Source of the DNA: Aureococcus anophagefferens
Taxonomy: Eukaryota > Sar > Pelagophyceae > Pelagomonadales > Pelagomonadaceae
DNA: 64,000 nucleotides
Assembly (NCBI RefSeq): GCF_000186865.1
Contig: NW_008705561.1
Span: forward strand, 1,133,559-1,197,558
Direction of reading: 5' to 3'
Shown: piece by piece, positions 7,334-62,274 of the stretch
How positions within the stretch are numbered: the first letter of the stretch is position 1
Layout of the letters: every line of letters begins with the position of its first letter
Made by a program: the position numbers and the translations under genes
The notes under the pieces: generated by a model
What the model saw: only the letters and a program-made list of their open reading frames with translations
Databases searched by the model: none
Told to the model about the DNA's origin: nothing

Positions 7334-9240
7334 ATGGCTGCGATGGCCGATGTCGAACGCCTTCGGCGAGCTATGGGAGATCTAGCGACTCGGCCGGCCT
7401 TCATGAACGCGCACAAGCAGGACTTCGCCATTCGTCCAGATGAGATCGAAAACATGGTCGCGACGCTCGACGATGAGTTCGCGCAGAAGCAATTCTGCAT
7501 GTCGCTTATGATGCCGACCGGCACGAATCACCCCGTCGGATGCATCGTGTGCGGCAGACGAGCCCTGGCGTCCGCGTCCTACGGCGGGTGCTCCCGGTGT
7601 CGCGGGCGCATGTATTGCAGCGACGTCTGCCAGGACGTCGACTGGACGCTGCACCGCCAGGACTGCGACGAGCGGATGTGCCACCTGAACACGATGCAGG
7701 GCGCGACGGTCAAGTCGATGACGACGGGCGAGCGACGCACGGACGTCGCGCGCGCCATGTGCGAGGACGCGGAGGCGGACCTCGACGAGGGCCGGCGCGC
7801 GCTGGACCGCGGGCGCCTCCAGGACGCGCTCGATACCGTCGAATTCTCCCTGCGCGCGGGCTGGGCCGCGCTGCAACGCGCGCGGCTCGACGAGCTCCGA
7901 GACGTGGACCTCGTCGCGCGCTGCGCGCGCGTGGCGGCCGCGGGGGCGATGGCCATGTCCCGCGTCTTCCTGGAGGTCGCGGAGCTCGAGCTCTACGAGC
8001 GCGGCGCGCGGGGCGCGCCCGACGCGCGGCCCCCGGTGACGCAGAAGCTGCTCAGCCACGGACGCAACCCGTCGCAGCAGTCGCTCATGGGCGCCCTCTA
8101 CTACGCGCGCGAGGTCCGCGTCATCGACCCGACGGCGGCCGTCGACGCGCTCGACCTCGAGGCGCGCGTGCTCGAGCGCCTCGCGGCCACGGGCTGCGAC
8201 GAGACGCCCTACGACGCCGCCCTCCTCCGCGAGCAACGGGCGGCGGTCGTCGAGCTCGTCGCCGAGATCAGGCGCCAGCTGGCGACGTTCGGCCCGTCGA
8301 GCCTCGGCGTCGCGCTCCTCTCCCTCGACGTCGCGGACGACTACACGTGCCTCCGCCTCGAGCAGAAGCGGTTCCACGACGAGCTCCGACCGGCGTCCTG
8401 CATCCGTGACGATCTTTCGAGAGATTTTGACCGGGAAAACGATGAACACGCGTGACCGACGCGCGCGGTAGGCTCCGACGGCGCGACGACTCGCCGTTCC
8501 GCCTCGACGCGCCCGTGCCGCGGAAGAAGGGCCCCGACGCCGGCATCCCGACGACCGAGGACGACTACTGGGGCACGGCGGGCGTGCGAGCGTCGCTCGT
8601 GCCGCTCCTCCGCGGAGGGCAGTGGCTGAGCCTGTCCCTCTTCCGCGGAGACTACCAGCTCTCGAGCCTCTGGCTGCGCCTCGCGGACCTCGACGGCGAC
8701 GTGGACGCGATCAACGTGGGGGCGAACCCGCGGCGCGCCGCGCGGGGCGGCTCCGCCGCCGCGCTCGCAATGAGCGCCAATCTCATCGCGCTGTTCACCT
8801 TCGAGGTGGACCAGAAGGGCATCAAGCTCTCGACCATCGTCTTTGGCGCCGGCCTGCGCGGCCTCCACCCCGACGAAACGACGGAGGAGCCCTTCTACCC
8901 GCGGTCGTGCGAGGCCTCCTACGCGCGCCCGGAGTGGGCCCCCGGCGGCAGGCCCGCCGCGTCCGGGGCGTCGGTCTTCTGGATTGGCGACGCGTGCGCG
9001 CCTTCGAAGCCCGAGCCCGCCAGCGCGCCTTCGAAGCCCGAGCCCGCCAGCGCGCCTTCGAAGCCCGAGCCCGCCAGCGCGCCTTCGGAGCCGGAGCCCG
9101 CCAGCGCGCCTTCGGAGCCCGAGCCCGCCAGCGCGCCTTCGGAGCCGGAGCCCGCAAAGGCGAAGAAGAAGAAGAAGCCTTTCCGTCGGAAGGCGAAGAA
9201 GGCCGCGCCCGCGCCGCCCGCGAGCCCGAGATGGAAGTGA
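7334..9240 (+). CDS. MYND zinc-finger protein with C-terminal Pro-rich repeats
   Basis: Two exons, 7334-8382 and 8472-9240, give 605 residues. The intron between them is an introner (8383-8471). A MYND finger lies near residues 71-112: C-x2-C, C-x2-C, YCSDVCQ, then H-x(3)-C. MYND fingers mediate protein-protein contacts. The middle is helical with no recognised domain. The C-terminus has six copies of a 9-residue Pro/Ala/Ser/Glu repeat followed by a Lys-rich tail. I chose the first true ATG of the frame. The splice is supported because both sides resume one reading frame and the duplicated 8-mer is removed once. It lies head to head with the acid phosphatase gene (137 bp between starts). The first part of the gene is less GC-rich than its neighbours. 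Confidence 0.82.
8383..8471 (+). mobile_element. Introner, family A (89-nt intron, GC-AG)
   Basis: The intron of the MYND gene. The 8-mer GCTCCGAC occurs at 8383-8390 and again at 8472-8479, directly after the TAG acceptor. The first copy supplies the GC donor, and splicing restores one copy and the frame. The interior shares GCGTCCTGC, GTGACGAT, CGAGAGATTTTGACCGGG and a GGTAG end with the other family A copies. Confidence 0.92.
8998..9159 (+). repeat. 27-nt coding minisatellite, six copies
   Basis: Six tandem 27-nt units encode APSKPEPAS-type nonapeptides. The first three have Lys at position 4 and the last three Glu (AAG versus GAG). Units are nearly identical, so the array is young and probably length-polymorphic. 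Confidence 0.9.
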
Positions 9241-9336
9241 CGGGGATCGCGGGAGCCGCTGTGGCGCGAGCCCACTGCCCGAGAGCACCATATGGAGTAG
9301 CCAGACACAGCGGCCTTTAGAGACATCACCACACAC

Positions 9337-11277: not shown

Positions 11278-11382
11278 CTTGCCGGGGGTCCGAATCTGTA
11301 CGGCTCCAATCTTCACGGCCATGTCGATCGACGTCGATTAGATACGTCGATTGGCTCCGACTTGCACCTTCACTACTGGCAG

Positions 11383-11485
11383 TGGGCCGTGGTCGCCGCA
11401 TGCCAGCCCTTCCCGCGTATAATGCGATGTGCGCTTTCGGGTTGCTCGCATGGGCCGTGGTCGCCGCATGCCAGCCCTTCCCGCG
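11383..11485. repeat. 35-bp direct repeat pair, period 68
   Basis: Positions 11383-11417 and 11451-11485 are identical over 35 bases. The second copy is coding (WAVVAACQPFP) and the first lies just upstream of the start codon at 11427. This is a recent short duplication across the 5' end of the sulfotransferase-like gene. Confidence 0.9.
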
Positions 11486-13034: not shown

Positions 13035-13136
13035 CGTCTAGACGGCAAAGTGAGTTAACGTTGCCGAAGGCAACACCTCGTCAACGAAAGAGCTCGACGC
13101 CGCCATCCTCGTCGCGCGCGCGCCGCAAGAACCGCA

Positions 13137-13973: not shown

Positions 13974-14009
13974 CATTGTTTTTGTAGAGAAGCTTGGTTA
14001 AAATCGCCG

Positions 14010-21600: not shown

Positions 21601-22292
21601 CTCCAGGTCGTCGACCTTCGCCGACTGCTTCGCCTCGGCCGCCGCGGCGGCCTCGGCGGCGCCGGGGAAGACGGGCGGGTTCCCGTAGGCCTCGACCTCG
21701 CCCTTGAGCTTGTTCGCCGCCGCCTGGATGGGCATGCCCGTGCAGTGGAACCCGAAGGGGAAGAGCACGTTGTAGCCCTGGAGCCGCTTGAACGACGCCG
21801 CGAACTCGGCCTTGGTCAGGGAGAAGGCGTGGCCCAGGTGCAGGCGCCCGTTCATGTAGGGGTACCTAGAGGAGCGGCGCGTCGGGTCGGCCGCCGCGCG
21901 CGCGTCGTCGCGCTCTCGTCCTTTGCGTTCGGGGCGCGTCAGACGGCGGTCGGGGACCGCGGGAGGCAGGCAGCGCGGCCGCATGCTCCCGGGAAGGTTC
22001 ATCCGGACGAGGCCGGGTCCCGGGACAAATGCGGCGCTGGTCTCCAAGTTCCCGTGCTGCATCACTCGCGGCGAAGTGCGGTTCGGGCGTCGCGGACGCG
22101 GGCGCCGCGCGGGAAGGTCACGAAGAACTTGGGCCGGCCGTCCTCGACGGCGTCGGCGGAGAACGTCGCCTCGCGCTCCCACTGCGCCTGCACAGATTGC
22201 TCCATGGCGATGAGCGCGTCGCGCCGCTTCGACGGCTGCGCGCCCGTCGCCGCCGCCGCGCCCTTCGGGGGCGGAGGCGGTTTGTCGGCCAT
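18655..22292 (-). CDS. LARS1: Cytosolic leucyl-tRNA synthetase
   Basis: Exons 22292-22111 and 21865-18655 encode 1130 residues, the usual size for the archaeal/eukaryotic cytosolic enzyme. It charges tRNA-Leu. Splicing out 21866-22110 (245 nt, GCGCGG donor, CTAG acceptor) rebuilds FVTFPYPYMNGRLHLGH, which contains the class I HIGH motif (HLGH). KMSKS is intact (GEKMSKSTGNF). The CP1 editing domain lies between, with a family-typical TLRPETMYGQTN segment, and the C-terminus has the eukaryote-type extension ending VTMHLYA. I chose the start at MADKPPPPPKG because the sequence beyond it is not conserved-looking. There is no targeting peptide, so it is the cytosolic form. It lies head to head with the STK36-like kinase, about 1 kb apart. 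Confidence 0.95.
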
Positions 22293-23346: not shown

Positions 23347-26300
23347 ATGAAGCAGGGCAACCACGAGAACTACATCGTCCTCGAGCGCGTCGGCGAGGGC
23401 TCCTTCGGCGCGCGCGCCGCGTCCCCGCGCCGAAAAACCGCGCCGCACCGCTCCGTCCGCAGGCAAGGTCTACAAGGGCCGGCGCAAGTTCACCGGGCAG
23501 ACCGTCGCGCTCAAGTTCATCAGCAAGCACGGCAAGTCGGAGCGCGACATGCGCAATTTACGCCAGGAGATCGCGATCCTGTCGGCGCTGGACCACGAGA
23601 ACGTCGTGAAGATGTTCGACTACTTCGAGACGGAGCGCGAGTTCTGCGTCGTCACGGAGTTCGCGCAGGGCGAGCTCTTCGAGATTTTAGAGGAGGACGG
23701 CACGCTGCCCGAGGACACGGTGCGCGACATCGCCCGCCAGCTCGTCAAGGCCCTGCACTACCTCCACTCGCAGCGCATCATCCACCGGGATTTGAAGCCC
23801 CAGAACGTGCTCCTGGGCGCGAACGGCCGCGTGAAGCTCTGCGACTTTGGGTTCGCGAGAGCGATGTCCATGGACACGATCGTGCTCACGTCCATCAAGG
23901 GCACGCCGCTCTACATGGCGCCGGAGCTCGTCAAGGAGCAGCCCTACGACCACACGGTGGACCTCTGGAGCCTGGGGGTGATCCTCTTCGAGCTGCTCGT
24001 GGGGCAGCCGCCGTTCTACACGAACTCGATCTACTCGCTCATCAACCACATCGTCAAGGACCCCGTGGTCTTCCCGTCCCACGTCTCGGAGCAGTTCGAG
24101 TCCTTCCTGAGCGGCCTCCTCCAGAAGGACCCGCGGAAGCGGCTCGCGTGGCCCCAGCTCCTCGAGCACCCGCTCGTGCAGGACACGGCCGAGGACGAGG
24201 CGCGCGCGGCGCGGGACCTGGCCTTCTACGGCGACTGCGGCGGCGCGGGCCCGCCGCGGGGGCGGCTCGAGCGCTTCCTCGAGTACCTCGGCGGCGGCAC
24301 GATGACGGACCGCGGCCTCGACATCGTCGAGGAGGAGGAGCCGTCGCCGACGTCGAGCCACAAGGGCGGCCGGTCCGGCGACCTGAGCCCCATGGAGGAG
24401 ACGCTCCGCGAGGCCATGCCGCCGCCGCCGCCGCGGGAGCGCAAGCCCGCGACGCCCGCGACGCCGGCCCGGGGCGACGCCGGCGGCGAGGGCTCGCCGC
24501 CGCTCGCGCGCGTCCGCGCGTGGCTCGACGGCCCGGACTCCGCGGCGTCGAGCCGCGGCGCGGCCTACGCGCCGCAGCTCCGCGACGCGCTGAGCGCCGT
24601 CGCCGAGGCGCGCGGCGGCGCGGGCTGGGCCGCCGCCGTCGTCGACTGCTGCGACCGCGGCGTCGCGGCCGCGCGGGAAAAAGGTGGGACGCCGGAGGAC
24701 CGCGACGCCATGGGCCTCGCGCTGCCGCCCTGCGTCGCCGTGCTCGACGCCTGCCTCGGCGCCGACGACGGCGACGACGGCGCCGTCGCCGCCTTCGCGC
24801 TGGCCGCCAAGCTCGTGGGGTCGCCGCCGTGGCTCCGCGACCGCAGCGACGACGAGGGCCGGCCCTTCGTGCCCACGTCCGCGCGCTGGGCCCTGGCGGC
24901 GGCGCTGCGCAAGGCGCTCGCGGCGGAGCGGCCCACGGGCGCGGCGGCGGCGGCGGCCGTGGCCTGCGCGACGGCGTGCCTGCGGCGCGCGACGCCCGCG
25001 ACGCTCGACGTGCTCCTCGCGCACCAGCTCCCCAAAGCGCTCGCGGCGCGGCTGGGCCTCGGCGGCGCCGACGCGCTCCCGGCGGCGCGGGCGCTGAGCC
25101 TGTTCCTCGAGCCGCCGCGGGCGTTGGCCATCTCCGCGCCGCCGACGCCGTTCCCGCTCTTCGCGGCGCGGCGCGACGACGGAAACGACGTCGCGGCCAC
25201 CGCGCGCGACGCCGAGGAGTCGGCGGCGCTGCTGCGGGAGCGCTTCGCCCTGCGCCGCCGCGTCGAGAAGGCCGTCTCGGAGGCCCTGGGGCCCGCGACG
25301 GCGCCGCCGGCGCTCGCGCTCTGCGACCTGCTCGACGCGGCGCGCCGCTGGCCGCCCGCGAAATTGGCCAAGGTGCTCCGCGTCGCGAGCCGCTGCTGCG
25401 GCGCGTCGTCGTCGGCGGCGCGGGCGCTGGGCCGCGCGCGGGACGATTTCTTGGTCGCGTTCCTCCTGGAGCGGCTCCGCGAGGCGCCGGGGGGCTACGT
25501 GGCGGGCGTGTGCCTCGCGGCGCTCGGCGCCTTGGCGCGCGCGGACGCGCTCGACGACGCGCGGACGCTCGAGGCCGTCGAGGCCGCGCGCGTCGCGCTC
25601 CACGGCGCCCAGGCCGAGGGCGACGTGCGCGTGCTCGGCGCGGCCGCGGGGCTGCTCGACGGCGCGCTCCAGGCCGCGCGCGCGCGCGCGGACGCCGCGA
25701 GCCGCCCGGGCTCCGCGGCGACGGCGGGGAGCGCCGGCGGCGACCCGCTCCGGGGGCCCAACGCCGTGGCGACGGCCGTGCTCAAGGCCGCGGCGGCGCC
25801 CAAGGCGCTCGGCGCCGTGTGGCGCGTGCTCACGTACGACGCGGCGAAGGCGCGCGTCGCCGACGCGTCGACGGAGAGCGACGACGCGTCCCTCGGCGCC
25901 GTCGACGAGGCGCCGGCGGACGCGTCGGGCCCCTTCCTGCCGCTGCTCGAGGGGAACCGGCTGGGCGCGCGGACGCGGGGCCTGCTCGACGCGCCGCTGC
26001 GGCTGCTGGCGCACGCGGCGACGCTCGTGCCCCTCATCGGCGCGCGGCTCCTCGCCGCCAAGCTCTGGGTGCCCCTGCTGGACCAGCTCGGCGACAAGCG
26101 GGGCGCCAACGAGCTGTCGCCCGCGGGCGCGGTCGCGGCGCTCGGCTGCCTGAAGGCGATGCTCGACGCGGCGCCGCCGGACGACCGGGCGCTGCTGCTG
26201 CTGCCGGAGGACGGCAGCGCGGGCGTCGCCGAGGCCTGCGCGGCGATCCTGGCGCCGCCCCACGCCGCGCGCGTCGCCGCGTGGCCCGACGGCGCCGACG

Positions 26301-31900: not shown

Positions 31901-34128
31901 CCTGTGTGGAATTCAAATCTTCAACCCGACTTCAATGTGCGCATATGCGACAGTTTCGACGCAAGCTCTTCGGCTGTGCTTCGAGAACTCGACGAGAGCG
32001 ATCGATCCGTCCAAAAATCAGCCGAATCGACTTCGATTTGACCGAGCTAGAGAATTCTCAAGTTTGGTCAGGACCACCCAAACCAGTGGTTGGTTTCCAC
32101 ACAGAGACGCACTCGTTGAAGCGGAACGTGCGCCAGGGCATGACCTTGACCTCGTGGGACATGATGGAGAGCTTGTGGAGCGAGGGCTGGCGGTTGAAGA
32201 GGACGACGTCGCCGTCCTGCATGTGGCGCTCGACGACGTCGCCGACGCGGAGCTCCTTGGCGATGCGCGCGCGGTCGCCGTAGAGCAGGCTCTTCTTGAA
32301 GGGCGGCCGGTCGCCGGCGCCCGGGTCGTCGTGGTTCGCGATCTCGACGTAGTTGGCGCCGGGCCACTGCTTCTGGCCGGCGACGACGAGCTTCTGGAGC
32401 TTCTCCAGGTTCAGCGCGTTCACCTTCTCCGGGTACGTCATGATCTTCGCGACCTCCTGCGGCACGCCGACCTGGTCCACGCGCAAGTTCGGGTCCGGCG
32501 AGATGACCGTGCGCGCGGAGAAGTCGACGCGCTTGCCGCTCAGGTTGCCCCGGAAGCGGCCGCTCTTGCCCTTGAGGCGCTGGCAGAGGCCGCGGATCGG
32601 CTTCGCCGCGGGCGCGTTCCGCGGCTGGAGGCCCGGCACCTCGCCGTTGAGGTAGAGCGCGACCTGGACCTGGAGGAAGTTCCAGCCCTCGACGATCATC
32701 TTCATGGACCCGCCCTTGCGGATGGCCTGGCGCAGCGCGCTGTTGACGTCGATGATCTCCTGGAGCTTGATCGTGAGGTCGTCCTCGTTGCTGCCGCCGC
32801 CGCCGGGCGAGTCGACGGCGACGCTCGGCCGGATGGGCGTCGGCGGGACGAGGAGCGTCTTGAGGACCAAATTCTCCGGCCGGCCCACGCGCGGGTCGAT
32901 CCAGAGCAGGTCGCAGTCGTCGTCGCTGATCTTCTCGAGGATCGCGCGGACGTCCACCGGCGACAGCACCGTCGGCGGCGCCTTCGTCGCCGTCGCCGAC
33001 GTCGGCACGCTCTTCTCCTCGGCCTCGAGGCGCCGCTTCTTCTCCGTGTCGCCGCCGCAGCCCAGGGCGTTGCGCAGGTCCGCGGACGCGCCGAGCGCCG
33101 ACTCCAACGACTCCGCGTACGCCGAGAACTCGTCGTCGTCGAGCAGGTCCTCGCGCTTCACGCCGCGCCACTTCTCGTGGGACAGCTTCAGGGCCCCGGC
33201 CCCGGCGACCTTGCGCACGGGGCCGTTGCGCGCGCCGCAGTAGGGGCACTTGGACGCGGCCTTGCAGCGGTCGACCTGCGCGGGACGAGCGCGCGAACTC
33301 CCAAAGGCGCCGCGCTCGGCCGTTTTCAACTCGTTTCGGCCCATGCGTGGACGGGCGATCGTCGCTCGGAGCGCGCTCGACGCCGTTTCCCGGAACGCGC
33401 GCGCGCGCCACGCTCGCGTCGAAGCGACGTCGCACGCGGCGCCGCGGCCGACGACGCGCTTGTAGAGCGCCTGTTTTCGGAGCGCGTCCGCGCGCGGGTC
33501 CCGCATGCGCCGCAGGAGCGTCGTCCGCTCCTGGGGGTGCACGAGGGCCCGCGAGCACTCCTTGCAGACGCACTGCAGGATCGTGAGCACGTGCTTGAAG
33601 TAGCCGACGTGGAACACGGGCAGCTCGAGGCGGACGACGCCGAAGTGGCCCGCGCACCTATGGGATGGAAAGAAAGGAGTCGCGACAAAAAGCGTCGTCG
33701 GTCTCAGAGAGGACGCCGGCGCCGCGCTGGTCGACCCGCTTGTGGCACGTCGCGCACGCGGTCTGCTTGTTCGCCGCTCCGAGCCGGAGGTCGAGGCAGC
33801 CGTTCGGCGCGGGCTTGCGGCTCGGCAGCGTGTAGAGCTCGCGGTTGTTGCACTCGAACTCCGCGAGGCTCTCCATCTCCTCCGGCGACAGCAGGCCGAA
33901 GACGACCTCCTTGATGCGCTTCCCGCCCGCGGCGCTCGACGTCTCGACGAGCTGGCAGGTGCGCTTCGACATGGCGCCGCCGTCCGCGTCGTCGCCGTCG
34001 CCGCTGGGCGCGGGCGCCGCCTCCTTGTCGCGCGTCGCTTTCGGGCACGCCCGCGGCGCGCCGCTTCGGGACTGAACCTGCGCGGCGGCACCACCAGAGC
34101 CTCTCGAGGCTGCCTCGCCCGCGTCCAT
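28967..34128 (-). CDS. POLR3A: DNA-directed RNA polymerase III largest subunit (RPC1)
   Basis: Exons 34128-33728, 33657-33453, 33275-32113 and 31901-28967 encode 1567 residues (1515 from the ATG at 33972, where family similarity starts). Splicing restores the N-terminal zinc site (CATCHKRVDQCAGHFG), a second zinc site (CPYCGARNG), and FNECVCAPYNADFDGDEMN with the three catalytic Asp that hold the active-site Mg. The PQTEEARAEA segment after it and the bridge-helix/trigger-loop regions (PGEAVGAIGAQCISEPGTQMTL) match the Pol III rather than the Pol II subunit, and there is no heptad CTD. It transcribes tRNA and 5S rRNA. Two introns are introners (31902-32112 and 33276-33452); the third (33658-33727, 70 nt) has a GCGCGG donor. 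It is head to head with UBE2K, about 180 bp apart. A Gly/Lys-rich insert lies near 29600-29750. Confidence 0.95.
31902..32112 (-). mobile_element. Introner, family B (211-nt intron in POLR3A, GT-AG)
   Basis: In sense orientation the 8-mer GTGCGTCT precedes the element and recurs right after the CAG acceptor (plus-strand copies 32105-32112 and 31894-31901). Both ends carry the inverted repeat CTGTGTGGAA. The interior shares the TCGGCTGATTTTTGGACG core with families B and C. Inserted in the codons just before the catalytic NADFDGD motif. Confidence 0.93.
33276..33452 (-). mobile_element. Introner, family C, inverted and GC-worn (177-nt intron in POLR3A)
   Basis: Target repeats GTCGGCCG and GTCGACCG agree at 7 of 8 positions. 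Read on the + strand, the interior aligns with the introner at 50973 (CGGCCGTTT-CAACTCGTTTCGG, GGACGGGCGATCGTC, TTTCCCGGAACGCGCGCGCG). Relative to the gene it is therefore inverted, and the revcomp of its left end supplies GCGCAG. AT positions have shifted towards GC. Confidence 0.85.
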
Positions 34129-34308: not shown

Positions 34309-35036
34309 ATGGCCTTCGACCGAGGGCGGCTCAAGAAGGAGCTGACCGAGCTCACGCGCGATACGAAGTCGGGCGTCACGGTGGAGGTGAAGTCGTCGGA
34401 CATGATGGAGCTCGAGGGCGTCATCACGGGGCCCGAGGGCACGCCCTACGAGGGCGGCGCGCGGCCGCGCCGAAACCGCCGCCGCGGCCGATGCGCCGTT
34501 GACCCCGTTCTCCCTAGGCACGTACCAGATCGGCATCACGATCCCGTCGGGCTACCCCTTCGAGCCGCCGAAGATGAAGCGCGTCCGCCGGCGCCCCCCC
34601 TGGCTTCCGCGCGCGCGCGCGGCCGTCGGCTCCGTCGACGCGCTCTTTCTCTAGGTTCCTCACGAAAATCTGGCACCCGAACATCTCGTCGCAGACGGGC
34701 GCTATCTGCCTCGACATCCTCAAGGACCAGTGGTCGCCGGCGCTGACGATCAAGACGGCGCTCCTGAGCCTCCAGGCGCTGCTGTGCTCGCCCGAGCCGG
34801 ACGACCCGCAGGACGCGCAGGTCGCGCAGATGTACCTCAACGAGCCCGACACCTTTAAACAGACGGCCAAGTTCTGGACCGAGACCTACGCGCGCCCAAA
34901 GGAGGCCGGCGCCGAGGACGCGGCCGTCGCGCGCCTCGTCGAGATGGGGTTCTCGCGCGAGCAGGTCGTCAAGGCCCTCGCGGACGCCAAGGGCGACGAG
35001 AACGAGGCCGTCACCGCACTCCTCTCGGGCGCCTAG
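34309..35036 (+). CDS. UBE2K: Ubiquitin-conjugating enzyme E2, UBE2K/Ubc1 type with UBA domain
   Basis: Exons 34309-34456, 34518-34578 and 34655-35036 encode 196 residues, matching the ~200-residue E2-25K family. Both introns (61 and 76 nt) have GCGCG donors, and no phase-compatible GT donor exists. Splicing gives [19 protein letters not shown] and [16 protein letters not shown] without gaps. The UBC fold contains the HPN motif and the active Cys in [21 protein letters not shown]-terminal UBA domain ([19 protein letters not shown]) is the hallmark of UBE2K/Ubc1, which builds Lys48 chains. Head to head with POLR3A; the shared upstream region is short (about 180 bp). Confidence 0.94.
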
Positions 35037-36831: not shown

Positions 36832-39184
36832 ATGAGGCTCGCAATCCTGCTCAGCGCGCTCCTGCAGCAATCGCAGCCATTGCAAACGCGGCCGTCGCTG
36901 CGCCGCGCCACGCGCTTGCACGCGCGCGAGGACGCCTACGCGAGCTACTGGGACGAGCTGCTGCTGAAGGAGTACCGCGAGGCCGCCGCGGAGCTGCGGT
37001 CGCGGCGCCAGACGTGGTCGCGGAAGCGGCTCGAGGACAGCGGCGACTCGGTCTTCGGCGCGGCGACGCCGGAGACGGAGCTCTTCGGCGACAAGATCGT
37101 GCGCGTGACGCGGCGGAGCGGCCGCGACGGCCGGCTGCGCGACCGGTTCCGCCGCGGCGACGTGCTGCTGCTGAGCCCCGAGGACCGCGCGCCGCGCGAC
37201 CGCCAGTTCCTCCCGCGCGACGTCGTCGTCGTCGACGCGGGCGCCGACTGGCTCGCCGTCGGCGCCGGCGCGCGGTGGCCGAAAGGCGTCTGGGAGTCGC
37301 GGCGGCGGCCGGGGTCCTGCGCCGTGCGCCTCGACCGCGCCGCGCCGCGCGCGCCCCTCGAGGCGCAGCGCGACGCCCTCGCGCGCGTCGCCGCGGGCGC
37401 GGCGGGCGAGGCCGCCGCGCTCCTCGCGCGGACGTTCGGCGGGTCCGCGGAGGCGCTCGACGCGCCGCCGGCCCGCTTCCGCGACGGCGCGCGGCTCGAG
37501 TTCGCCGGCGTCCCCGGCGGCGTGACCGCGCCGTCGCTCGAGATCGCCGCGCTGAACGCGATCGGCGGCGCCAAGGACGACGCGGGCGGCTTCGAGCCGA
37601 ACGCGTCCCAGGAGGACGCGATCGCCTGGGCGCTCGCGCGCAGCGTGTCGCTGATCCGCGGGCCGCCGGGCACGGGCAAGACGCGCTGCGCGAGCCTCCT
37701 CGTCTCCTCGGCGCTGCGCCTCGGCGACGGCGGCGCGGCGCCGCGCGTCCTGGCGGTGTGCCACTCGAACGGCGCCGCGGACGTTTTGCTCGCGGCGCTC
37801 GTCGCCGTGGGCGTCCCCGCGATCCGCGCGGGCCGGCCGGCGTCCGTCGCGCCGGAGGCGCGGCGCCACACGGTCGTGGCCCTCGCCGAGCGGCACCCCG
37901 AGGTGTCCGCGCTCCGGGAACGCGCGCGGAACGCGACGCTCAAGCCGCACGTGCGCTCCGCGGCCGCCGCGGACGCGCGAAAGGTCGTCGACGAGGTCCG
38001 CGAGGCGCTCTCGCGCAACGCGCCGGTGGTCGTCGCGTCCTGCGTCGGCCGGCGTCCTGCAACCGTGACGATTTTCGAGAGATTTGGACCGCAGGAACGA
38101 TGCAAAATCGTCACGGTAGCACTTCGTAGGCGTCGGCGCGCACCAGCTCATCGAGGCGTCGTCGGGCGAGTTCTCTTTGGTCGTCGTCGACGAGGCCGCG
38201 CAGACGACGGAGCCCGCGGTCCTCTGCGCTTTGGCCGCGGCCAAGGCGGACCAGATCGTCTTCGTCGGCGACACGAAGCAGCTGCCGCCGACGGTCGTCT
38301 CCGAGGACGCGGCGCTCCGGCGGGCGCTCGCGACGTCGCCCATGTCCGCGGCCAGCGTCCTGTGGCCGTGACGATTTTCGAGAGATTTGGAGTGGGAAAA
38401 CAATGAGAAATCGTCACCGTCATGCTTGGTAGGCAGCGGCTCGAGGCCGCGGGGCTGCCGCTGAAGACGCTCCGGGTCCAGTATACGGCGTCGAGCGACA
38501 GGAGTGCTTTTTCTCGTGAATTTCGCCTGAAGATGTGAAGAAATCCGACCCCGTCGCACTTGGTAGGTCCAGTACCGCATGCCGCCGGCGCTCGTCGAGC
38601 ACCCGTCGAACTACTTCTACGAGGGCCTCGTCGCCTGCGCCGACGACCGCCGCGAGGGCGAGGCGCCGCCCGCGGGCTTCCCCTGGCCGGGCGGCCTGCC
38701 GCTCGCCTTCGTCGACGTGAGGGCGGAGGAGACGAAGCGCGCGTCCGGCGGCGTGACGAACGCGCGCGAGGCCGAGCTCGTCGCGGCGGTCGTCGCGGGC
38801 GTCCTCGAGGCGGGCGAGCTCGGGCCCCGCGATCTGGTCGTGATCTCGCCCTACAACCGCCAGTGCGACGCCGTGCGCGGCGCGCTCGCGCGGCGCGGCG
38901 TCTACGACGTCCGCGTCGGCACGGTCGACGCCTTCCAGGGGCAGGAGACGCAGCTCGTGGTTTTTACGGCGACGCGGTCGAACCCGCGCGGGGACCTCGG
39001 CTTTCTGCGCGATCCGCGGCGCCTGAACGTGGCCATCACGCGCGCGAAGCGCGGCCTCGTCCTCGTCGGCGACGCGGCGACGCTGTCGAACTCCCGGCAC
39101 TGGCGCGCGCTCGTGGACTCGTGCCGCGACCGCGGCGCGTGGGTCGACGGAGATGCGGCGTTCCCCGAGCTGGAGTTATGCTAG
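36832..39184 (+). CDS. SF1 DNA/RNA helicase, IGHMBP2/UPF1-like
   Basis: Exons 36832-38041, 38130-38343, 38433-38475 and 38567-39184 encode 694 residues. All three introns are introners, clustered in 525 bp. Helicase motifs in order: Q-like NASQEDAI, Walker A GPPGTGKT, motif Ia CHSNGAADVL, motif II VDEAAQ (DEAA), motif III GDTKQLPP, VQYRMPP, motif V TVDAFQGQET and motif VI NVAITRAKR. This is the UPF1-like SF1B group, which moves 5' to 3' on DNA or RNA. Removing the introns rebuilds ASCVGAHQL, SPMQRLEAAG and LRVQYRM. The N-terminus (MRLAILLSALLQQSQPLQTR) may be an organelle signal; no R3H or zinc finger is present. Its stop overlaps the APS kinase stop inside one CTAG. Confidence 0.92.
38042..38129 (+). 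mobile_element. Introner, family A (88-nt intron in helicase, GC-AG)
   Basis: Target repeat GCGTCGGC at 38042-38049 and 38130-38137. Contains a perfect 11-bp inverted repeat, GTGACGATTTT (38065-38075) and AAAATCGTCAC (38104-38114), which can fold the intron into a hairpin. Acceptor CTTCGTAG. It joins ASC to VGAHQL in frame. Confidence 0.94.
38344..38432 (+). mobile_element. Introner, family A (89-nt intron in helicase, GT-AG)
   Basis: The interior matches family A (GTGACGATTTTCGAGAG and AAATCGTCACCGT, ending GCTTGGTAG). The expected duplication has decayed: TCCGCGGC upstream against GCAGCGGC downstream. The donor at 38344 gives SPMQRL and the usual 89-nt length. The alternative donor at 38362 would give SAASVLQRL. 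Confidence 0.8.
38476..38566 (+). mobile_element. Introner-like insertion with different interior (91-nt intron in helicase)
   Basis: Perfect 8-bp target repeat GTCCAGTA at 38476-38483 and 38567-38574, and the end CGCACTTGGTAG resembles family A. The middle (GAGTGCTTTTTCTCGTG, GAAGATGTGAAGAAATCC) matches none of the other copies. It restores LRVQYRM. Confidence 0.88.
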
Positions 39185-45073: not shown

Positions 45074-46068
45074 ATGGGACGCCTCAGCATGTCGTCGCTC
45101 GCCACCACGCTCCCCGAGCTCAAGGAGGCGCGCGTGACGACGAAGCACGCCTTCACGGGACGGATGTGCGCGGCGTCGCGCGACGTCGAGACCAAGCGCC
45201 CGGACTCGCTCTTCGTGGATCCGCTGGCGCACAAGCTCGCCGGCACCGAGGGCCGCGGCGCGCCCATGGGCTCCTGGATCCTCGTGCCGCGGACGCGGCG
45301 CGGCGACGACTGCCTCGTGGAGCACTACGGCAGGGGCTGCCGCCAGCTCGTGCTCCTGGGCGCGGGCATGGACGCGCGCGCGTACCGCGCCTTCGCTCCG
45401 GGGGCCGACGCGCCGCCGGACGCGCGCTCCGTGACCCTCGACGGGCTCGCGGTCTTCGAGGTGGACCAGCAGACGACCTTCGACGTCAAGGAGCCGTTAG
45501 TCGCCAGAGCGCCGCTCGCCGTCGAGTCGCGGCGCGTCGTCGGGACGGACTTCGCGAAGGGACCGACGGCCTGGAGCGACCAGCTGCTGCACTGCGGCTT
45601 CGACGCGTCCGTGCCGACGGTCTGGCTCAGCGTCCTGCGGCCGCGACGATTTTCGAGAGATTTTGACCGGGGGAACAAACAAAGAATCGTCACCGACGTG
45701 CTTGGTAGGTCTGGCTCCTCGAGGGGCTGCTGTATTACTTACGAGAGGGCGACGTCGCCGCGCTCCTGCGCGCCGTCGGGAAGCTCTCCGCCGTCGGCTC
45801 GGCCGTCTTCCACGACTCCATCACGCGCTCGTTCGTCGACGTCGGCGTCGCGCCGGGAGGTGCACCTTTCCTGAGCGGCAGCGACGACTACGCGGGCCTC
45901 TGGCGCCGCGCGGGCTTCCAGCAGACGCAGGTGAGGGACCTGTCGTCGATCACCGTCGACCGCGGGTCGCGCTGCCTCACGCACGAAGACCCAGCATTCG
46001 AGCTCACGCCGGCGCGGTGCCGCGGCCAGAGGCTCGTGCTGTTCGTCGAGGCCGTCAAGACGAGTTAG
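45074..46068 (+). CDS. SAM-dependent methyltransferase, LCMT/PPM1-like
   Basis: Exons 45074-45619 and 45709-46068 encode 301 residues; the intron is an introner. The hallmark LVLLGAGMDARAYR matches the SAM-binding G-x-G-x-D-x-R-x-x-R motif of the leucine-carboxyl-methyltransferase superfamily (PF04072), in particular the bacterial-style TIGR00027 branch. Splicing restores PTVWLLEGLLYYL, another conserved block of this family (W-x-x-E-G-x-x-x-Y). The C-terminus (RLVLFVEAVKTS) is complete. The substrate is unknown; many members act on small molecules or polyketide-type products rather than PP2A. The bacterial flavour could reflect old transfer, but codon use matches the host. Confidence 0.88.
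45620..45708 (+). mobile_element. Introner, family A (89-nt intron, GT-AG)
   Basis: Target repeat GTCTGGCTC (9 bases identical) at 45620-45628 and 45709-45717. The interior carries CAGCGTCCTGCGGCC, GACGATTTTCGAGAG and AATCGTCACCGACGTGC, ending TTGGTAG. The GT donor lies in the target repeat. Confidence 0.94.
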
Positions 46069-49872: not shown

Positions 49873-52332
49873 ATGACCACCGAAGACGATCCCAAATGGC
49901 GCATCTTCTGCGTGGCCCGCATCAAGCCCGTCGGCGAGGGCGAGGCCGCCGCCGTGGTCCAGGAGAGCGCCACGCAGCTCAGCGTGCCGCACCCCGACGA
50001 CGACGACGAGGAGCCGACGGAGGGGCGCCTCACCTTCACCATGGACGCCATCTGCGGCCCCGAGGCGACGCAGCAGGACGTCTACGCGCTCTTCAAGCCC
50101 ATCGTCGCGTCGACGTGCAAGGGCCGCAACGGCTGCGTCTTCGCCTACGGGCAGACGGGCAGCGGCAAGACGCACACGGTCGTCGGCGGCGACGACTTCC
50201 GGAGCCGGGGCCTCGTGCCGCGGGCCATCGGCCAGGTCTTCCGCGAGGCGGCGAAGCGGCGGAGGAAGGGCGGCGACGTGGCCGTGTCCTGCACCTTCGC
50301 GCAGGTCTACGACGACGCGCTCTACGACCTCCTCGACGAGGGCAACGAGTCCGACGACGTCGGCGAGTGGACGAAGGCGTCGGTCCTCGAGGGCGACGAC
50401 GGGTCCCTGACCTTCGAGGGGCTCGCGGAGTACGGCGCGGACGAGGAGGAGGACGCGCTCCGGCTGCTCTGGGTCGGCACCGCGCGGCGCGTCCTCGGGC
50501 AGACCAAGGCCAACGACGCGAGCTCGCGGTCCCACGCCGTCTTCACCATCTACGTCGTCGACGCGCAGCGCAAGACGCGCGCGAAGCTCCACCTCGTCGA
50601 CCTCGCGGGCTCCGAGCGCTTCGGCGCGTGGAGCGACGGCCGGCGCGGGACGCGGGCGCGAACTTCCCGACTTCACAGGCGCCGATCTCGGGCCGCGTTC
50701 CGGCCCCGATGTTTGGACGAGCGCTCCTCCCTCGGAGCGCTCTCGGATGCTCGTTCCGGAACGCGCGCGCGCGGCGCGCCCGCGCCGAGGCGACGTCGAC
50801 GCGCGCCGGTCCCGCGCAGGCGACGGCGGCGCGTCCGCGGAGTCGCGGAACATCAACCTGAGCCTCCACTACCTCGAGCAGGTCGTCCGGGCGCTGCGGG
50901 ACGGCGCCGACGAGCCGCGCCACGTGCCCTACCGCAACTGCGTGCTCACGTCCATGCTCCGCGACTCGCTCGGCGGCAACCAGGGCAGGAAAAGAGAGCG
51001 AAATTCCCAACTTCAAAGGCTCCGATCTCGGCCGTTTCCCACTCGTTTCGGCTGATTTTTGGACGAGCGATCATCTCTCGGAACGGTCTCGAAGCATGGA
51101 TGCTTTTTCCGGAACGCGCGCGCGCGGAACACTCACGTTGAAGCGACGTTGAATCACCCTTTTCCTGCCCAGGCGGCAACTGCCGGACCGCGCTCGTCGC
51201 GTGCGCGTCCGCGGCGCGCGACCACGCGGCGGAGTCGACGGCGACGTGCCGCTTCGCGCTGCGCTGCGGCGACGTGCGCGCCGTCGACGTCGTCGCCAAC
51301 GTCGACGTGGACCCGCGCGACGCCGCGCTCGCGAGCTACCGCGCCGAGGCCGAGAGGCTCCGGGCCGACGCGCGCGCGCGGGACGCGGACCTCGCGGAGG
51401 CGTCGGCCCAGGCGGCCATCGCCATGCGCCTCGCGTCGTCCTTCGAGGCCAAGGCGTCGGGCCTCCAGCGGCGCCTCGACGAGGCGACGGCGCGGCTCGA
51501 GGCCGTGCCCGCGCGGCGAGACAGCCGCCGCGACCGGTCCTACAGCGAAGATAGTGAGGGCCGGGGGCCGCCCGCGGCGCCGCTGGCGCCCACGGGCGCC
51601 GCCGCCGCCGAGGAGCCGGCGAAGGAGAACCTCGCGCCGCCGCCGCGCCGCGAGGCGGGCCCGGCGAAGCGGCGCGCGTCCGCGGGGCCGCCCGCGCCGC
51701 CGCCGGAGCGGCTCCGCGCGGAGATGCTCCAGCGCGGCCGGGCGCTCCTCAAGCACGGCCGGCGGGGCGGCGTCTACGTGCGCTTCGTCTGGGTGAGCCC
51801 CGAGGACGCGCGGCTCTGCTGGCGCAAGTTCGGCGGCGGCGGCGACCACGCGGCGGAGGACGACGCGGACCCGACGAGCGACGCGGCGTCGGGCTTCGTG
51901 TCCCTGCGCGACTACGCCCACGTCCAACCCGCGGCCGGCGGGCGCAAGCGCGACGACCTCGCGACCTGCGCGCTCACGCTGCACGCGGCCGCGGGCGCGA
52001 AGCTGTGTGGAAATCAACCAGCGGAATGGACGCGTCCAGCAAAACTTCAAACCTCTCTATCTCGGTCAAATCGAAGTCGATTCGGCTGATTTTTGGACGA
52101 ATCGATTGCTCTCGTCGAGTTCTCGAAGCACAGCCGAAGAGCTTGCATCTAAACTGTCGCATACGCGCACATTGAAGTCGGGTTGAAACTTGATTTCCAC
52201 ACAGGCGCGAAGCAGCGCGCGCTCACGCTCCAGTTCGACGCGGGCGCCGCGGCGGCGTCGGCCAAGGTCCGCGACGACTGGCTCACGGCCCTGCGCGAGG
52301 CCATCGACGCCGCGCGGGACCTGGTCCTGTGA
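49873..52332 (+). CDS. Kinesin motor protein with C-terminal PH-like domain
   Basis: Exons 49873-50632, 50820-50972, 51173-51994 and 52205-52332 encode 620 residues. All three introns are introners. The N-terminal motor domain has P-loop [10 protein letters not shown], switch [10 protein letters not shown], switch II DLAGSER, and after splicing [18 protein letters not shown] and [13 protein letters not shown]. The motor therefore moves on microtubules using ATP. A short coiled coil follows ([20 protein letters not shown]), then a Pro/Ala linker and a C-terminal module ([20 protein letters not shown] to the end) resembling a PH domain, as in kinesin-3 cargo carriers. The motor is N-terminal, so plus-end motion is expected. 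Subfamily assignment needs a tree. It is divergent from the plastid-type gene at 49608. Confidence 0.92.
50633..50819 (+). mobile_element. Introner, family C, GC-worn (187-nt intron in kinesin, GC-AG)
   Basis: Perfect target repeat GCGACGGC at 50633-50640 and 50820-50827. The interior is alignable with the copy 150 bp downstream (GCGAACTTCCCGACTTCA, TTTGGACGAGCG, TTCCGGAACGCGCGCGCG), but many A/T positions have become G/C. This looks like an older copy. Confidence 0.92.
50973..51172 (+). mobile_element. Introner, family C (200-nt intron in kinesin, GC-AG)
   Basis: Perfect target repeat GCGGCAAC at 50973-50980 and 51173-51180. Terminal inverted repeats CAGGGCAGGAAAAG and CTTTTCCTGCCCAG agree at 13 of 14 positions. 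The shared core CGGCTGATTTTTGGACGA is at 51049-51066. It joins DSLG to GNCRT. Confidence 0.95.
51995..52204 (+). mobile_element. Introner, family B (210-nt intron in kinesin, GC-AG)
   Basis: Perfect target repeat GCGCGAAG at 51995-52002 and 52205-52212. Perfect 15-bp terminal inverted repeats CTGTGTGGAAATCAA (52003-52017) and its reverse complement (52190-52204). Core CGGCTGATTTTTGGACGA at 52083-52100. The best-preserved family B copy in the window. Confidence 0.96.
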
Positions 52333-54175: not shown

Positions 54176-55325
54176 ATGCTCTGGGTGGACAAGCACCGCC
54201 CCCTGGAGCTCGGGAAGATGAGCTACCACGGCGAGCTGAGCGAGCGGCTCGCGACGCTCGCCGCGGACGGCGACATCCCCCACCTGCTCTTCTACGGCCC
54301 GTCCGGCGCGGGCAAGAAGACGCGCATCATGGCGCTGCTGCGCGCGCTCTACGGCGCCGGCGCCGAGAAGCAGCGCCTCGAGCACCGCGACTTCAAGACG
54401 CCGACGAACAAGGCCATCGAGGTGACGACCGTCGCGTCGAACTACCACATCGAGATCAACCCGTCGGACGCGGGCAACAACGACCGCTACGTCGTCCAGG
54501 AGGTCATCAAGGAGATCGCCCAGTCCGGGTCGCTCCACAAGGGCGACAAGGGCCGCGTCGGCTACAAGGTCGTGCTCCTCGTCGAGGTCGACCGTTTGAC
54601 GCGGCAGGCGCAGGCGGGCCTCCGGCGGACGATGGAGAAGTGCACGAGCAGCTGCCGCCTCATCCTCTGCTGCAACAACCCGTCCAAGGTCATCGACCCC
54701 CTGCGGTCGCGCTGCCTCGGCATCCGCGTCGCCGCGCCGACGGAGGCGGAGATCGTCGCCGCGCGCGACGGCGTCCCGCGGCCGCGACGATGTTCGAGAG
54801 ATGTCGGCCGGGAACACGATGAACCATCGTGACCGTCGTGCTTCGTAGGTGCTGGACGACGTCGCGGCGCGCGAGCGCCTCGACCTGCCGCCCGCGCTCG
54901 CCGCGCGCATCGCCAAGGCGTCGAAGCGGAACCTGCGCCGGGCCATCCTGAGCCTCGAGGAGTGCAAGGTCCAGCAGTACCCCTTCGACGCGGCGCAGGC
55001 CGTGCCGCTGCCCGACTGGGAGCAGTACGTCGTCGCCATCGCGTCGGACATCGCGCGCGAGCAGTCGCCCCAGCGGCTGCTCGCGACGCGCGACAAGCTC
55101 TACGAGCTCTTGTCCAAGTGCATCCCCGCGGACGTCATCCTCAAGACCCTCGCGCGGGAGCTCCTCAAGAACCTCGACGACGAGATGAAGGCCGAGGTCC
55201 TCAAGTGGGCCGCGTTCTACGAGCACCGCATCACCCAGGGCAACAAGGAGATCTTCCACCTCGAGGCCTTCGTCGCCAAGTTCATGTGCCTCTACAAGAA
55301 GTTCATGATGGAGATGTTCGCCTAG
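54176..55325 (+). CDS. RFC3: Replication factor C subunit 3 (RFC38/Rfc5 type)
   Basis: Exons 54176-54760 and 54849-55325 encode 353 residues, the normal length. It is one of the small subunits of the clamp loader that opens PCNA on DNA. It begins MLWVDKHRPL, with Walker A GPSGAGKKTR, a Walker B region VVLLVEVDRLTRQAQ and the SRC-like PLRSRCLGI. KNLRRAIL- and VQQYPF-type blocks (KRNLRRAIL, KVQQYPF) are typical of this subunit. The intron is a family A introner; placing its donor at 54761 gives APTEAEIVAVLDDVAARERL, whereas any later donor leaves extra residues. The first ATG is used. Confidence 0.95.
54761..54848 (+). mobile_element. Introner, family A, worn (88-nt intron in RFC3, GC-AG)
   Basis: The family A interior (GGCGTCCC, GACGATGTTCGAGAGATG, CATCGTGACCGTCGTGC, TTCGTAG) is recognisable. 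The target repeat has decayed to GCGCGCGA against GTGCTGGA (5 of 8). Placement is supported by the 88-nt length and by gap-free continuity of the RFC3 protein. Confidence 0.85.
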
Positions 55326-55347
55326 GGCCCGACCTAAAGAGGCGCGC

Positions 55348-58300: not shown

Positions 58301-58354
58301 TCGTCTGGAGGGACCGGAGCAGCTCGTCGTCGGCCGCGTCCTGCTCGGGCGTCC

Positions 58355-58388
<34 letters not shown>

Positions 58389-59696: not shown

Positions 59697-59952
59697 CGTC
59701 TAGAGCTTTTCGAAGTCAATTTGGACGCCCATCGTGCCACTGGCGGCCTCGGACAAAAGACGCGCGCTTTGGAGGTCGACGCCGACGCTCATCTGGTGCG
59801 CCCGCTCTCCCCTCCCGCGCCGAACGCCCCCGCCGCCCCGCGGGAATCGCCGGGCGAGGTTCTCTACGCCGCCCCAGAGCCCCCGGCCGGCGACCCGCGG
59901 TCGCCGGGGCGGATTTTTAGCGGTCGCCGGGGCGGATTTTTACGGGCGAAGC

Positions 59953-62274
59953 ATGAACCCCTACCAGCAGCAACAGGGCGCGTATAACCCCATGGCGGCG
60001 TACTACGCCCAGCAACAACAACAGCAGCAGGCCTACGCCTACCAGCAGCAGATGGCCCAGCCCTACCAGCAGCAGCCCCAGTACGGCGCGCCGCCGCGTC
60101 CCCCCCCCCGCGCGCCGCGCGCGTCCGCCGACCCCCCGCCTTCCGCAGGCTACCAGCAGCAGCCGCAGATGTACCAGCAGCCGCCGCCGCAGCAGATGTA
60201 CCAGCAGCCCATGTACCAGCAGCAGCCGCAGATGTACCAGCAGCCCGCGCCGCCGCCGCCGCCCGCGCCCGCGGCGCCGCCGCCGCCGCCGCCCGCGGCG
60301 TACGCGCCGCCGCCCGCGCCCGTCGCGGCCGCGGCGCCCGCGGCGGGCGGCGGCGAGCTGCCGACGATGGCCCTCGTGCCCATGAACGTCTTCGTGGGCA
60401 AGCTGCCCCTCGCGGTCCACGACAGCTTCGTCGAGGCGATGCTCAAACAGTGCGGCGGCGTGCTCAAGTGGAAGCGGACGATGGACAGCGAGACCGACCG
60501 GCCCAAGGCCTTCGGGTTCTGCACCTTCGGCAACGCCGAGGGCGCCATGCAGGCCGTCAAGCTCCTCAACGACTTCCCCCTCGAGGGCCAGAAGATCCTC
60601 GTCAAGGTCGGCCGCAAGGAGCAGGTCATCATCGACGAGATGGTCGCGCGGCGGAACCGCAGCGCCGCGCCCGGCGGCGCCGTGCTCAGCGCGGCGCCGT
60701 CGGCGGGCGCGGGCACGGCGCGGACGCCCGCCGACGAGGCCCAGCTCGGGCGCATCCGCGCGTTCGTCGCGTCCGTCGACTCGCGCGCGCCAGTGTCCGC
60801 GGACGCCGCCGCGCGGATCCTCGGCGCGCCGGCGGCGGACAGCACGCTCGCCACGGCGGCGGCGGCGGCGGCGGGCGCCCCCGTGGCGCCGCCGGTCCTC
60901 GCGGCCATCGCCGCGGCGCCCGCGGCGCCGGGGTCGGCGCACGAGCGCATGATCCGGGGCAGGAAAAGAGTGCGAAATTCCCAACTTCAAAGGCTCCTCT
61001 CTCGGCCGTTTCCCACTCGTTTTGGCTGATTTTTGGACGAGCGATCATCTCTCGGAACGGTCTCGAAGCGTGGATGCGTTTTCCGGAACGCGCGCGCGCG
61101 GAACGCTCACGTTGAAGCGAACTTGAATCACTCTGTTCCCGCCCAGGCATGATCGCCGAAGAGATGGAGAAGTTCCGCGCCAAGCAGGCCCAGCGCGACC
61201 GCGAGCTCGAGGACGAGCGCCGCCGCAAGCTCCAGGCCAAGATCCAGGAGACCATGAACCTCGAGAAGGGCATCAAGGAGGGCCTCGAGAAGGCCGCGGA
61301 CGCGAAGCGGCAGCCCGACAGGTCCGCGCCCCCCCCGACATCCCCCGCGCGCGCGCCGCGCCGACGCCCGCCCGCCCGCAGGCCCAAGCAGCCCGAGCCC
61401 TACACCTACGACGGCGAGTCGGCGGCGAAGCGCGCGCGCCTCGACGACGCCGCGGCGCGGGACCGCGCGGACGCGCCCGTGGCCCCGCCGCGCCCGAGCT
61501 CGCGGCCCGCGCGCGCCGCCGACGCGCGCCGCCCCCGCGCAGAGCGAACTCAAGCCGACGGGGTCCAAGCTCGGCTTCGGCCTCAGCGCCAAGGGCACGC
61601 GCGCGGGAGCGCGCCGCGTCGAAGCGCGGCGCCGGCGCCCCCGGGACGCGGTCCCCCCGCGCGCGCGCCGAGCCGCGCGCGCGCGCAGGTGTCGGCGTTC
61701 AAAACCGAGGCGGCGGACAAGCCGCGGCCCCTCCAGCCCCTGGATTACAGCGAGGAGGAGGCGTCCGTCGCGGCGGACGCGCGAGCGATCACGTCTTCAT
61801 TGCAATCCGAGTCCGGTGATTCCGATAACCCTCCGCCCGCGCCCGCGAGCGACGCCCCTCCTCCAGCGACGCTGGGTGCGGACGAGAAGAAGCGGGACCG
61901 GGCCATCGCCGAGCGCATTCCCACGGAGAAAGCCGCCCTCTTCGCGAGCCACGTCGACTGGGCCGCCGCGCGTACCGCCGCGTCCTGTTTCGCCGGCGCC
62001 GCCGTTCGCGACGCGCCCCCCCCCCCGCCAGGTCGAGCGCCACGCCATCGTGCGATCGAAACTGCGGCCGTGGGTCGCGAAAAAGATTGCAGAGTACCTC
62101 GGAGAAGAAGAACCCACCCTCATAGATTTCGTGCTCTCGTGCCTCGACCGCCGCGCTCGACCCGAGGAGATCCTCGACGAGCTCGCGCTCGTGCTCGAGG
62201 AGGACGCGCAGGTCCTCGTGGTCAAGCTGTGGCGCGTGCTCCTCTTCCACGCCGCCAAGGCCGCGACGGCGTGA
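59953..62274 (+). CDS. RBM25: RBM25-like splicing factor (RRM plus PWI)
   Basis: Placed exons: 59953-60085, 60149-60946, 61147-61321, 61382-about 61508, 61543-about 61608, 61689-61967 and 62032-62274. The Gln/Tyr/Pro-rich N-terminus (QQQ and PQMYQQP repeats) leads to one RRM ([20 protein letters not shown] with RNP1-like AFGFCTFG). A charged RE/ER-type helix follows ([20 protein letters not shown]). A C-terminal PWI domain ([20 protein letters not shown]) ends in VKLWRVLLF. This order is that of RBM25/Snu71, a U1-snRNP-associated factor acting in 5' splice-site choice. Introns: 60086-60148 (GCGCGC donor), 60947-61146 (introner), 61322-61381 (GT), 61968-62031 (GCGCGT). Two more donors, near 61479-61509 and 61600-61625, are ambiguous. 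Some introns are stop-free, so retention isoforms are possible. Confidence 0.88.
60947..61146 (+). mobile_element. Introner, family C (200-nt intron in RBM25, GC-AG)
   Basis: Perfect target repeat GCATGATC at 60947-60954 and 61147-61154. The interior is close to identical to the kinesin copy at 50973 (AATTCCCAACTTCAAAGGCT, TTTTTGGACGAGCGATCATC, GGAACGCGCGCGCGCGGAAC), so both look young. It joins AHER to MIAEEMEKF. Confidence 0.95.

Follow-up and report, generated by a model that had tools for sequence, protein, structure and literature searches.

The window analysed here, a stretch of 64,000 nucleotides from contig NW_008705561.1 of Aureococcus anophagefferens (positions 1,133,559 to 1,197,558 of the forward strand, in an assembly of 49,050,692 bases and 86 contigs), has a GC content of about 71% and carries genes for LeuRS, a protein kinase, the largest subunit of RNA polymerase III (RPC1), a UBE2K-like E2, a helicase, an LCM-type methyltransferase, a kinesin, RFC3 and an RRM protein, the last of which we take to be RBM25-like. 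Many of the introns in these genes are introners, repeated elements flanked by a duplication of 8 base pairs (bp) of target sequence. With boundaries predicted from the sequence, it is confirmed that GC donors occur and that they roughly match GT donors in number or exceed them, and the most probable explanation is that new introns take their donors from GC-rich coding DNA.

The supported introns of the window number 15, with 11 GC and 4 GT donors. Fourteen are supported by a protein fit that is agnostic to the donor or by an exact 8-bp target-site duplication (TSD), and the helicase intron at 38042..38129 by its exact duplication alone. They are listed by coordinates and strand, followed by two introns that were left uncounted.

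8383..8471, + strand: introner of family A, GC-AG, 8-bp TSD GCTCCGAC, matching at 8/8
21866..22110, - strand: LeuRS intron (TF/PYPYMNG), GC-AG, top placement among 1777
23408..23462, + strand: protein-kinase intron (GEGSFGKVYKG), GC-AG, one reference sequence
31902..32112, - strand: introner of family C in RPC1 (FNEC/VCAPYN), GT-AG, TSD GTGCGTCT
33276..33452, - strand: RPC1 intron, GT-AG, TSD-like match at 7/8, weakly similar to family B
33658..33727, - strand: RPC1 intron (CHKRVDQ/CAGHFG), GC-AG, protein fit
34457..34517, + strand: E2 (UBE2K-like) intron a, GC-AG, equalled in score by a peptide without an AG-ending placement
34579..34654, + strand: E2 intron b (PPKMK/FLTKIW), GC-AG, with 0 frame-compatible GT-AG placements within 36 nucleotides
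38042..38129, + strand: introner of family A in the helicase gene, GC-AG, TSD GCGTCGGC, 8/8
38476..38566, + strand: introner of family D in the helicase gene (LRVQYRM), GT-AG, TSD GTCCAGTA
45620..45708, + strand: introner of family A in the LCM-type methyltransferase gene, GT-AG, TSD GTCTGGCT
50973..51172, + strand: introner of family B in the kinesin gene (DSLGGNCRT), GC-AG, TSD GCGGCAAC
51995..52204, + strand: introner of family C in the kinesin gene, GC-AG, TSD GCGCGAAG
54761..54848, + strand: decayed introner of family A in the RFC3 gene, GC-AG, duplication 5/8, one reference sequence
60947..61146, + strand: introner of family B in the RRM-protein gene, GC-AG, TSD GCATGATC
38362..38432, + strand: uncounted helicase-gene intron over a decayed family A copy, duplication 6/8, upstream copy starting with TC; by reading, the frame appears to fit a GT donor inside the element
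50645..50819, + strand: uncounted older kinesin intron, best AG placement AC and GC next, no clear winner

Five elements served as queries for introner copies, both in the window and in most of the fetched loci; loci that are AT-rich or overlapping (L002, L003, L009, L010 and L013-L017) were omitted, and partial copies were uncounted. The search gave 46 full-length copies in four families (A, B, C and D), 20 of them found by a similarity search with one element and 26 in the window and in loci fetched otherwise; the helicase copy at 38042..38129 lies outside this set. In family B, all 40 scored matches, taken from 2044 first-look candidates, are 96-100% identical. A target duplication of at least 7 of 8 bases flanks 42 of the 46 copies, and 40 duplications are exact. 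The gene strand was set by codon usage alone, over 150 nucleotides on each side and with the codon table of a hidden Markov model (HMM). When read in gene sense, all 42 duplications start with G and a pyrimidine (GY), either GC (25) or GT (17), although GY has a share of 0.198 in coding sequence, and all 42 elements end in AG (CAG in 37, TAG in 5). A strict coding filter classes 25 copies as sense and 4 as antisense and leaves 13 unclassed, with GY starts in 25/25, 4/4 and 13/13 and GC starts in 13, 3 and 9, such that the sense and antisense copies that pass hold 16 GC and 13 GT. Among copies that reach a score of 25 and a strand margin of 30, GY starts are found in 33/33 (22 GC, 11 GT).

The GY start tracks the gene rather than the element. 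Three of the 27 family B copies and five of the 10 family C copies lie opposite to the query orientation. In element orientation, GY starts are found in 25/27 copies of family B and 6/10 of family C, compared to 27/27 and 10/10 in gene orientation. Because GY follows gene sense and not the orientation of the element, the rule points to splicing.

When the segment that runs from the upstream duplication, first base included, to the AG of the element is spliced out, the kinesin sequence DSLGGNCRT and the RPC1 sequence FNECVCAPYN are restored, and by reading the same splice would also restore LRVQYRM in the helicase and VPTVWLLEG in the methyltransferase. The metagenomic relatives P0241 and P0242 have an uninterrupted DSLGGNCRT, yet read through the older kinesin intron 1. 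The second kinesin introner is missing from P0241 as well, which reads AAAGAKHRALTLQF at the site of 51995..52204. Both are most simply taken as uninserted alleles, with partly spliced cDNA as a possible alternative. The metagenome proteins P0001, P0121 and P0241 are 98-99% identical to those of the window, and by this measure their source is the same or a very near population. In the kinesin relatives P0244 and P0245, the sequence runs into an element of the same family close to the DSLGGNCRT site, at a point that appears to be a few bases off, which suggests independent insertions.

Donors were also assessed in conserved genes, by taking all frame-compatible, stop-free placements up to 36 nucleotides to either side of 10 junctions (an earlier version covered eight junctions and 30 nucleotides). 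The 945 to 1777 placements for each junction carried no donor or acceptor rule, and the joined peptides were scored against relatives: 12 references for LeuRS, 16-17 for RPC1, 14 for kinesin, 2 for E2 and 1 each for RFC3 and the kinase, so that support for the E2, RFC3 and kinase placements comes from few relatives. The A. anophagefferens gene models P0123 and P0243, which look misjoined, served in the earlier version but were excluded as references here. For nine of the ten junctions, the best AG-ending placement has a GC donor in seven (LeuRS, kinase, RPC1 33658, both E2 introns, kinesin 50973 and RFC3) and a GT donor in two (RPC1 31902 and RPC1 33276), and the other 14 dinucleotides come first at none of them. 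The top peptide overall contains the best AG placement in seven of the nine, with one tie, at E2 intron a. The transcript collections of relatives contain the LeuRS junction as a continuous TFPYPYMNG (P0002 and P0004, 76-77% identical to the window LeuRS; P0004 has taxid 114041, unclassified Pelagophyceae), and the joined E2 and RFC3, and likewise the kinase, align without gaps across the junctions to solved relatives. Against A. anophagefferens proteins, the RPC1 exon shows 93% identity to P0122, with 92% of the query covered, and the kinesin 88% to P0243, with 58% covered.

An earlier, sequence-only reading of this DNA had named the LeuRS, kinase, E2 (PPKMKFLTKIW), kinesin and RFC3 introns as GC-AG, and each of these assignments, like that of the other E2 intron, holds as the best among AG-ending placements. 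Its further statement that no phase-compatible GT donor exists nearby is true, within 36 nucleotides, for the second E2 intron only; the other six GC junctions have frame-compatible GT-AG placements with a worse fit, such as 240.8 versus 283.5 for LeuRS, 55 versus 90 for the kinase and 207 versus 216 for RFC3.

Ten residues are missing from the annotated RPC1 of A. anophagefferens (P0123) exactly at the GC-AG intron 33658-33727. The three relatives shown keep these residues, which include cysteines that are presumably zinc ligands. A GT donor 30 nucleotides upstream in the window DNA would yield exactly the P0123 model, an example of how a bias toward GT can mislead gene models in such algae.

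The two-strand HMM was trained without homology, and its gene models served as a starting point only. When GT was paired with each other dinucleotide in turn, GT+GC was the best of all 15 pairs (log-likelihood -285427, compared to -285646 for GT only). Free training of both donor and acceptor drifted and did not converge on GY; with the acceptor fixed as AG and the donor free, the second donor base came out as G in over half of the introns, a shift out of register. These fits, the pairs included, are not used as evidence for GC. A fit restricted to GY donors gave 66.6% GC among about 178 introns, but was left out of the counts for the same weakness of the HMM. Direct 8-mer repeats ahead of AG, when searched for blind, were no more frequent than background, and this line was abandoned. 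The HMM places the boundaries of the RPC1 intron 33276..33452 at 33276-33428 instead. It also calls an intron, probably wrongly, in part of a 27-bp tandem repeat array at 8991-9179 within a predicted coding region.

The union of supported introns contains 32 GC donors among 50 (64%; Wilson confidence interval (CI) 0.50-0.76), with GC in 25/42 introners, 10/20 of the copies picked by similarity and 15/22 of the others. For this set of 50, a share near one percent is excluded. The supply of potential donors was taken from the predicted coding sequence of the sample (173,621 bases). GC has a dinucleotide share of 0.1561 and GT of 0.0419, such that GC is 3.7 times commoner. With equal acceptance of C and T, 78.8% of introner donors would be expected to be GC, compared to the 59.5% found (p 0.004). 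From the introner copies, the acceptance of GC relative to GT is estimated at 0.39 (CI 0.22-0.72). A donor of G and a purine is found in 0/42 copies, where about 35 would be expected if acceptance equaled that of GY.

The duplications, the boundaries, the gene-sense GY rule, the ratio of supply, the restored proteins and the uninterrupted relatives can all be read directly in the DNA and protein sequences. They fit a mechanism in which introners are mobile, non-autonomous DNA elements whose insertion into genes would generate an 8-bp duplication of the target. The element would supply the acceptor, as the CAG or TAG at its gene-sense 3' terminus, and the first two bases of the upstream duplication copy, which are gene sequence, would become the donor. 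Splicing would then remove one duplication copy together with the element and leave the coding sequence unchanged. An insertion in a coding exon would survive only where the duplication starts with GC or GT, and we infer that the GY rule reflects this selection by splicing, and that the predicted boundaries are used in vivo. A supply of 3.7 GC per GT, combined with roughly 2.5-fold discrimination between C and T at position +2, would bring GC donors to equal or exceed GT donors. GC donors would thus be common because new introns take them from GC-rich coding DNA. The few older, non-introner introns that can be placed have the same mixture of GC and GT. We give this account, of introner insertion, donor supply and weak C/T discrimination, a probability of roughly 0.86.

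The sequence-only reading had inferred a spliceosome with relaxed position +2. This is supported in a narrower form, in that the tolerance at +2 appears limited to a pyrimidine (42/42), with C apparently retained at about 0.39 times the rate of T. Since donor supply accounts for the GC majority, no spliceosome that prefers GC, or accepts it equally, is needed. In two decayed copies of family A, at 54761-54848 in the window and at position 9898 of locus L019, the intronic copy of the duplication has GC and the exonic copy GT, the pattern that a T-to-C change at +2 following insertion would leave.

Several results weigh against this account. The claim that GC donors outnumber GT donors, made earlier from a count of 19 to 10, stands to the extent that GC donors are real and in the majority in the window (11/15), but the majority is likely rather than firm, as 32/50 does not differ significantly from one half (two-sided p 0.065) and the copies picked by similarity split evenly, with 10 GC and 10 GT. 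Thirteen of the 42 copies failed the strict coding filter and were oriented by the higher codon score only. Of the four copies dropped for their duplications, all of family A, the upstream copy starts with GC, TA, TC and GC, and two of these break the GY rule (TA in L044, TC at window position 38353). In the junction test, a non-AG placement scores above the best AG-ending one for RFC3 (218.0 versus 216.0) and E2 intron b (246.5 versus 244.0), and is tied with GC-AG for E2 intron a. The HMM fit for GT+CG nearly equals that for GT+GC (-285434 versus -285427), and donor identity is left unsettled by coding statistics alone. The far end of the duplication carries the mirror dinucleotide in 17/42 copies, compared to 42/42 at the donor end, and these 17 are themselves an enrichment (p 0.007), so that part of the rule may be a target preference. 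A second GY, four bases inside the element and in frame, offers an alternative donor in 42/42 copies.

Mammalian GC-AG introns have a stronger match to the U1-pairing consensus elsewhere in the donor. At the seven positions of that canonical consensus outside the first two donor bases, the small sample of 42 introner donors gives 2.40 matches for GC donors versus 2.07 for the coding GC background (z 1.45, n=25) and 1.88 for GT donors versus 1.65 for the coding GT background (z 0.89). There is no significant enrichment of the U1 consensus beyond G-pyrimidine among the 42 donors, and no significant compensation by stronger context in the 25 GC donors. It is possible, if rather doubtful, that the introner 5' splice site is G-pyrimidine alone, recognized via the element and with U1 pairing largely dispensable. 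The parts of the element that serve such recognition may be the acceptor, the branch region or a stem of terminal repeats.

Terminal inverted repeats are seen by eye in families B and C, and none are evident by eye in families A and D. The 5' end of family B in gene sense is CAGG in 24, CGGG in 2 and CCGG in 1 of 27 copies (for example in L049, L036 and at window position 60955). It is never CTGG, the perfect inverted repeat of the CCAG end, whichever way the element body lies. RNA folding was compared with shuffles for 17 of the 42 introners and 8 old introns. End pairing is above the shuffles in 6/6 copies of family B, 5/6 of C, 1/2 of A and 3/3 of D, and in several old introns, and the fold energy lies below z -2 in 3/6, 5/6, 0/2 and 0/3 copies of B, C, A and D and in 1/8 old introns. 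Folding was dropped as a general mechanism of recognition, given that low fold energy is confined to part of the copies.

Among the alternatives, the least improbable is that the transposase targets GY starts, such that the 42/42 rule would reflect insertion chemistry and be uninformative on donors. The mild enrichment of the mirror dinucleotide at the other end of the duplication is consistent with this proposal, and a weak symmetric target preference may contribute to the GY rule beside selection. No clearly non-genic introner copy that could serve as a neutral control was identified among the copies found. Yet families B and C insert both ways and GY still tracks the gene strand, and nine protein junctions, several outside the introner families, are independently GC or GT. 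Target preference as the whole explanation is therefore unlikely.

It is less likely still that introners carry both splice sites, such that the donor lies within the element, four bases from its edge, and each insertion adds 12 nucleotides to the messenger RNA. Such an addition, of 8 nucleotides of duplication and 4 of element, is described for one Aureococcus family by Gozashti et al. (PMC9860276). The G-pyrimidine at intron positions 13-14 would supply the donor, and the HMM put the donor at this position in seven window introners. However, an internal donor does not need GY at the start of the duplication, where all 42 copies have it in gene sense. It would also add four residues to kinesin DSLGGNCRT, RPC1 FNECVCAPYN and RFC3, and the relatives examined lack them.

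Very improbable is an altered 5' end of U1, at position 7, that makes the spliceosome prefer GC. The sequence-only reading had looked to U1 and U6 for a change that would relax +2, and U6, with one match in the genome, has a canonical ACAGAGA region. U2 has three matches, U1-70K one, and LUC7 one in the whole genome (G000:C9:1115865-1116620); in other organisms, subfamilies related to LUC7 affect which 5' splice site is chosen. Whereas U2 and U6 were found, U1 RNA was found neither by Rfam nor among the hits of six sequence patterns, and no U1 with the canonical ATACTTACC was found in the assembly; two exact matches to ATACTTACCTG, in less GC-rich stretches, gave no U1 match at E 1. The pattern matches scanned were 11 loci of one pattern together with L002, L003 and L068, and ten others were read by eye; L009 had no scan of its own. 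L068, the sole one scanned of seven matches, gave no U1 and appears to be coding sequence. Four other loci (L014-L017, on contigs C22, C24, C37 and C41) have 48-58% GC, far below the window, and could be foreign contigs or low-GC regions of chromosomes. The U1 gene may be hidden in stretches of N, which make up 19.4 kb, or about a tenth, of a 200-kb genome sample. A U1 altered so as to pair with C at +2 would be expected to favor GC, but relative to supply GT is favored about 2.5-fold, which argues against it. In addition, a canonical U1 5' end is reported for A. anophagefferens (PMC3033335). U1 also escaped detection in two genomes of Amoebophrya that carry intronic elements (PMC7789003).

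That the GC donors are artefacts of placement in a GC-rich genome, with true GT donors elsewhere, is the least credible alternative: coding statistics alone cannot separate GC from CG and frame-compatible GT-AG placements lie near 6/7 GC junctions, but these placements fit worse in 6/6 and the exact duplications set boundaries without any splice rule.

The account by insertion and donor supply would make insertion scars a measure of splice-site tolerance that requires no RNA. Huff, Zilberman and Roy reportedly described the introners of A. anophagefferens and Micromonas pusilla in 2016 as short DNA elements that are excised perfectly, with one splice site carried and the other co-opted from the duplication. 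These introners are described as co-opting splice sites and inserting in both orientations (per PMC10228655), with a characteristic length of about 210 bp (per PMC9481584). Beside them, the gene-sense GY rule and the ratio of GC to GT acceptance are measured here. No such ratio was met in the portions of the introner and GC-AG literature at hand, in a survey with no search aimed at the ratio. Family 4 of Aureococcus sp. has an 8-bp duplication, as here, and is reported to add 12 bp (Gozashti 2022, PMC9860276), whereas exact excision is better supported in the window. The M. pusilla introners D-IE1 and IE-A1 have 46% and 53% GC donors and a conserved proximal donor motif, AG/GYGCGT (van Baren 2016, PMC4815162; PMC3879977), whereas the donors of the window have no significant motif.

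High shares of GC donors are also known from GC-rich algal genomes. In expressed sequence tag alignments, GC-AG introns make up 39.6% in A. anophagefferens and 22.2% in M. pusilla, compared to 1.3% overall (Iwata and Gotoh 2011, PMC3033335). The algae in that study have in common a high GC genome, as does the window, and their GC-AG introns are unexplained by U1 sequence. In the small curated set described here the share is about 60-64%, and it is tied to introners and supply, which would account, for this lineage, for an observation termed an enigma in 2011 (PMC3033335). In Emiliania huxleyi, GC donors exceed GT, with 56% of 241 manually mapped junctions and 9 of 13 junctions verified by reverse transcription PCR (PMC4028052). 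Like the window, E. huxleyi has a GC-rich genome in which GT-biased gene models err, but it is a haptophyte and, in the part of that report used here, its GC donors are not linked to introners (PMC4028052). Introns with many GC donors, and the introners of such algae, are thus already known in kind, and the window is a further member.

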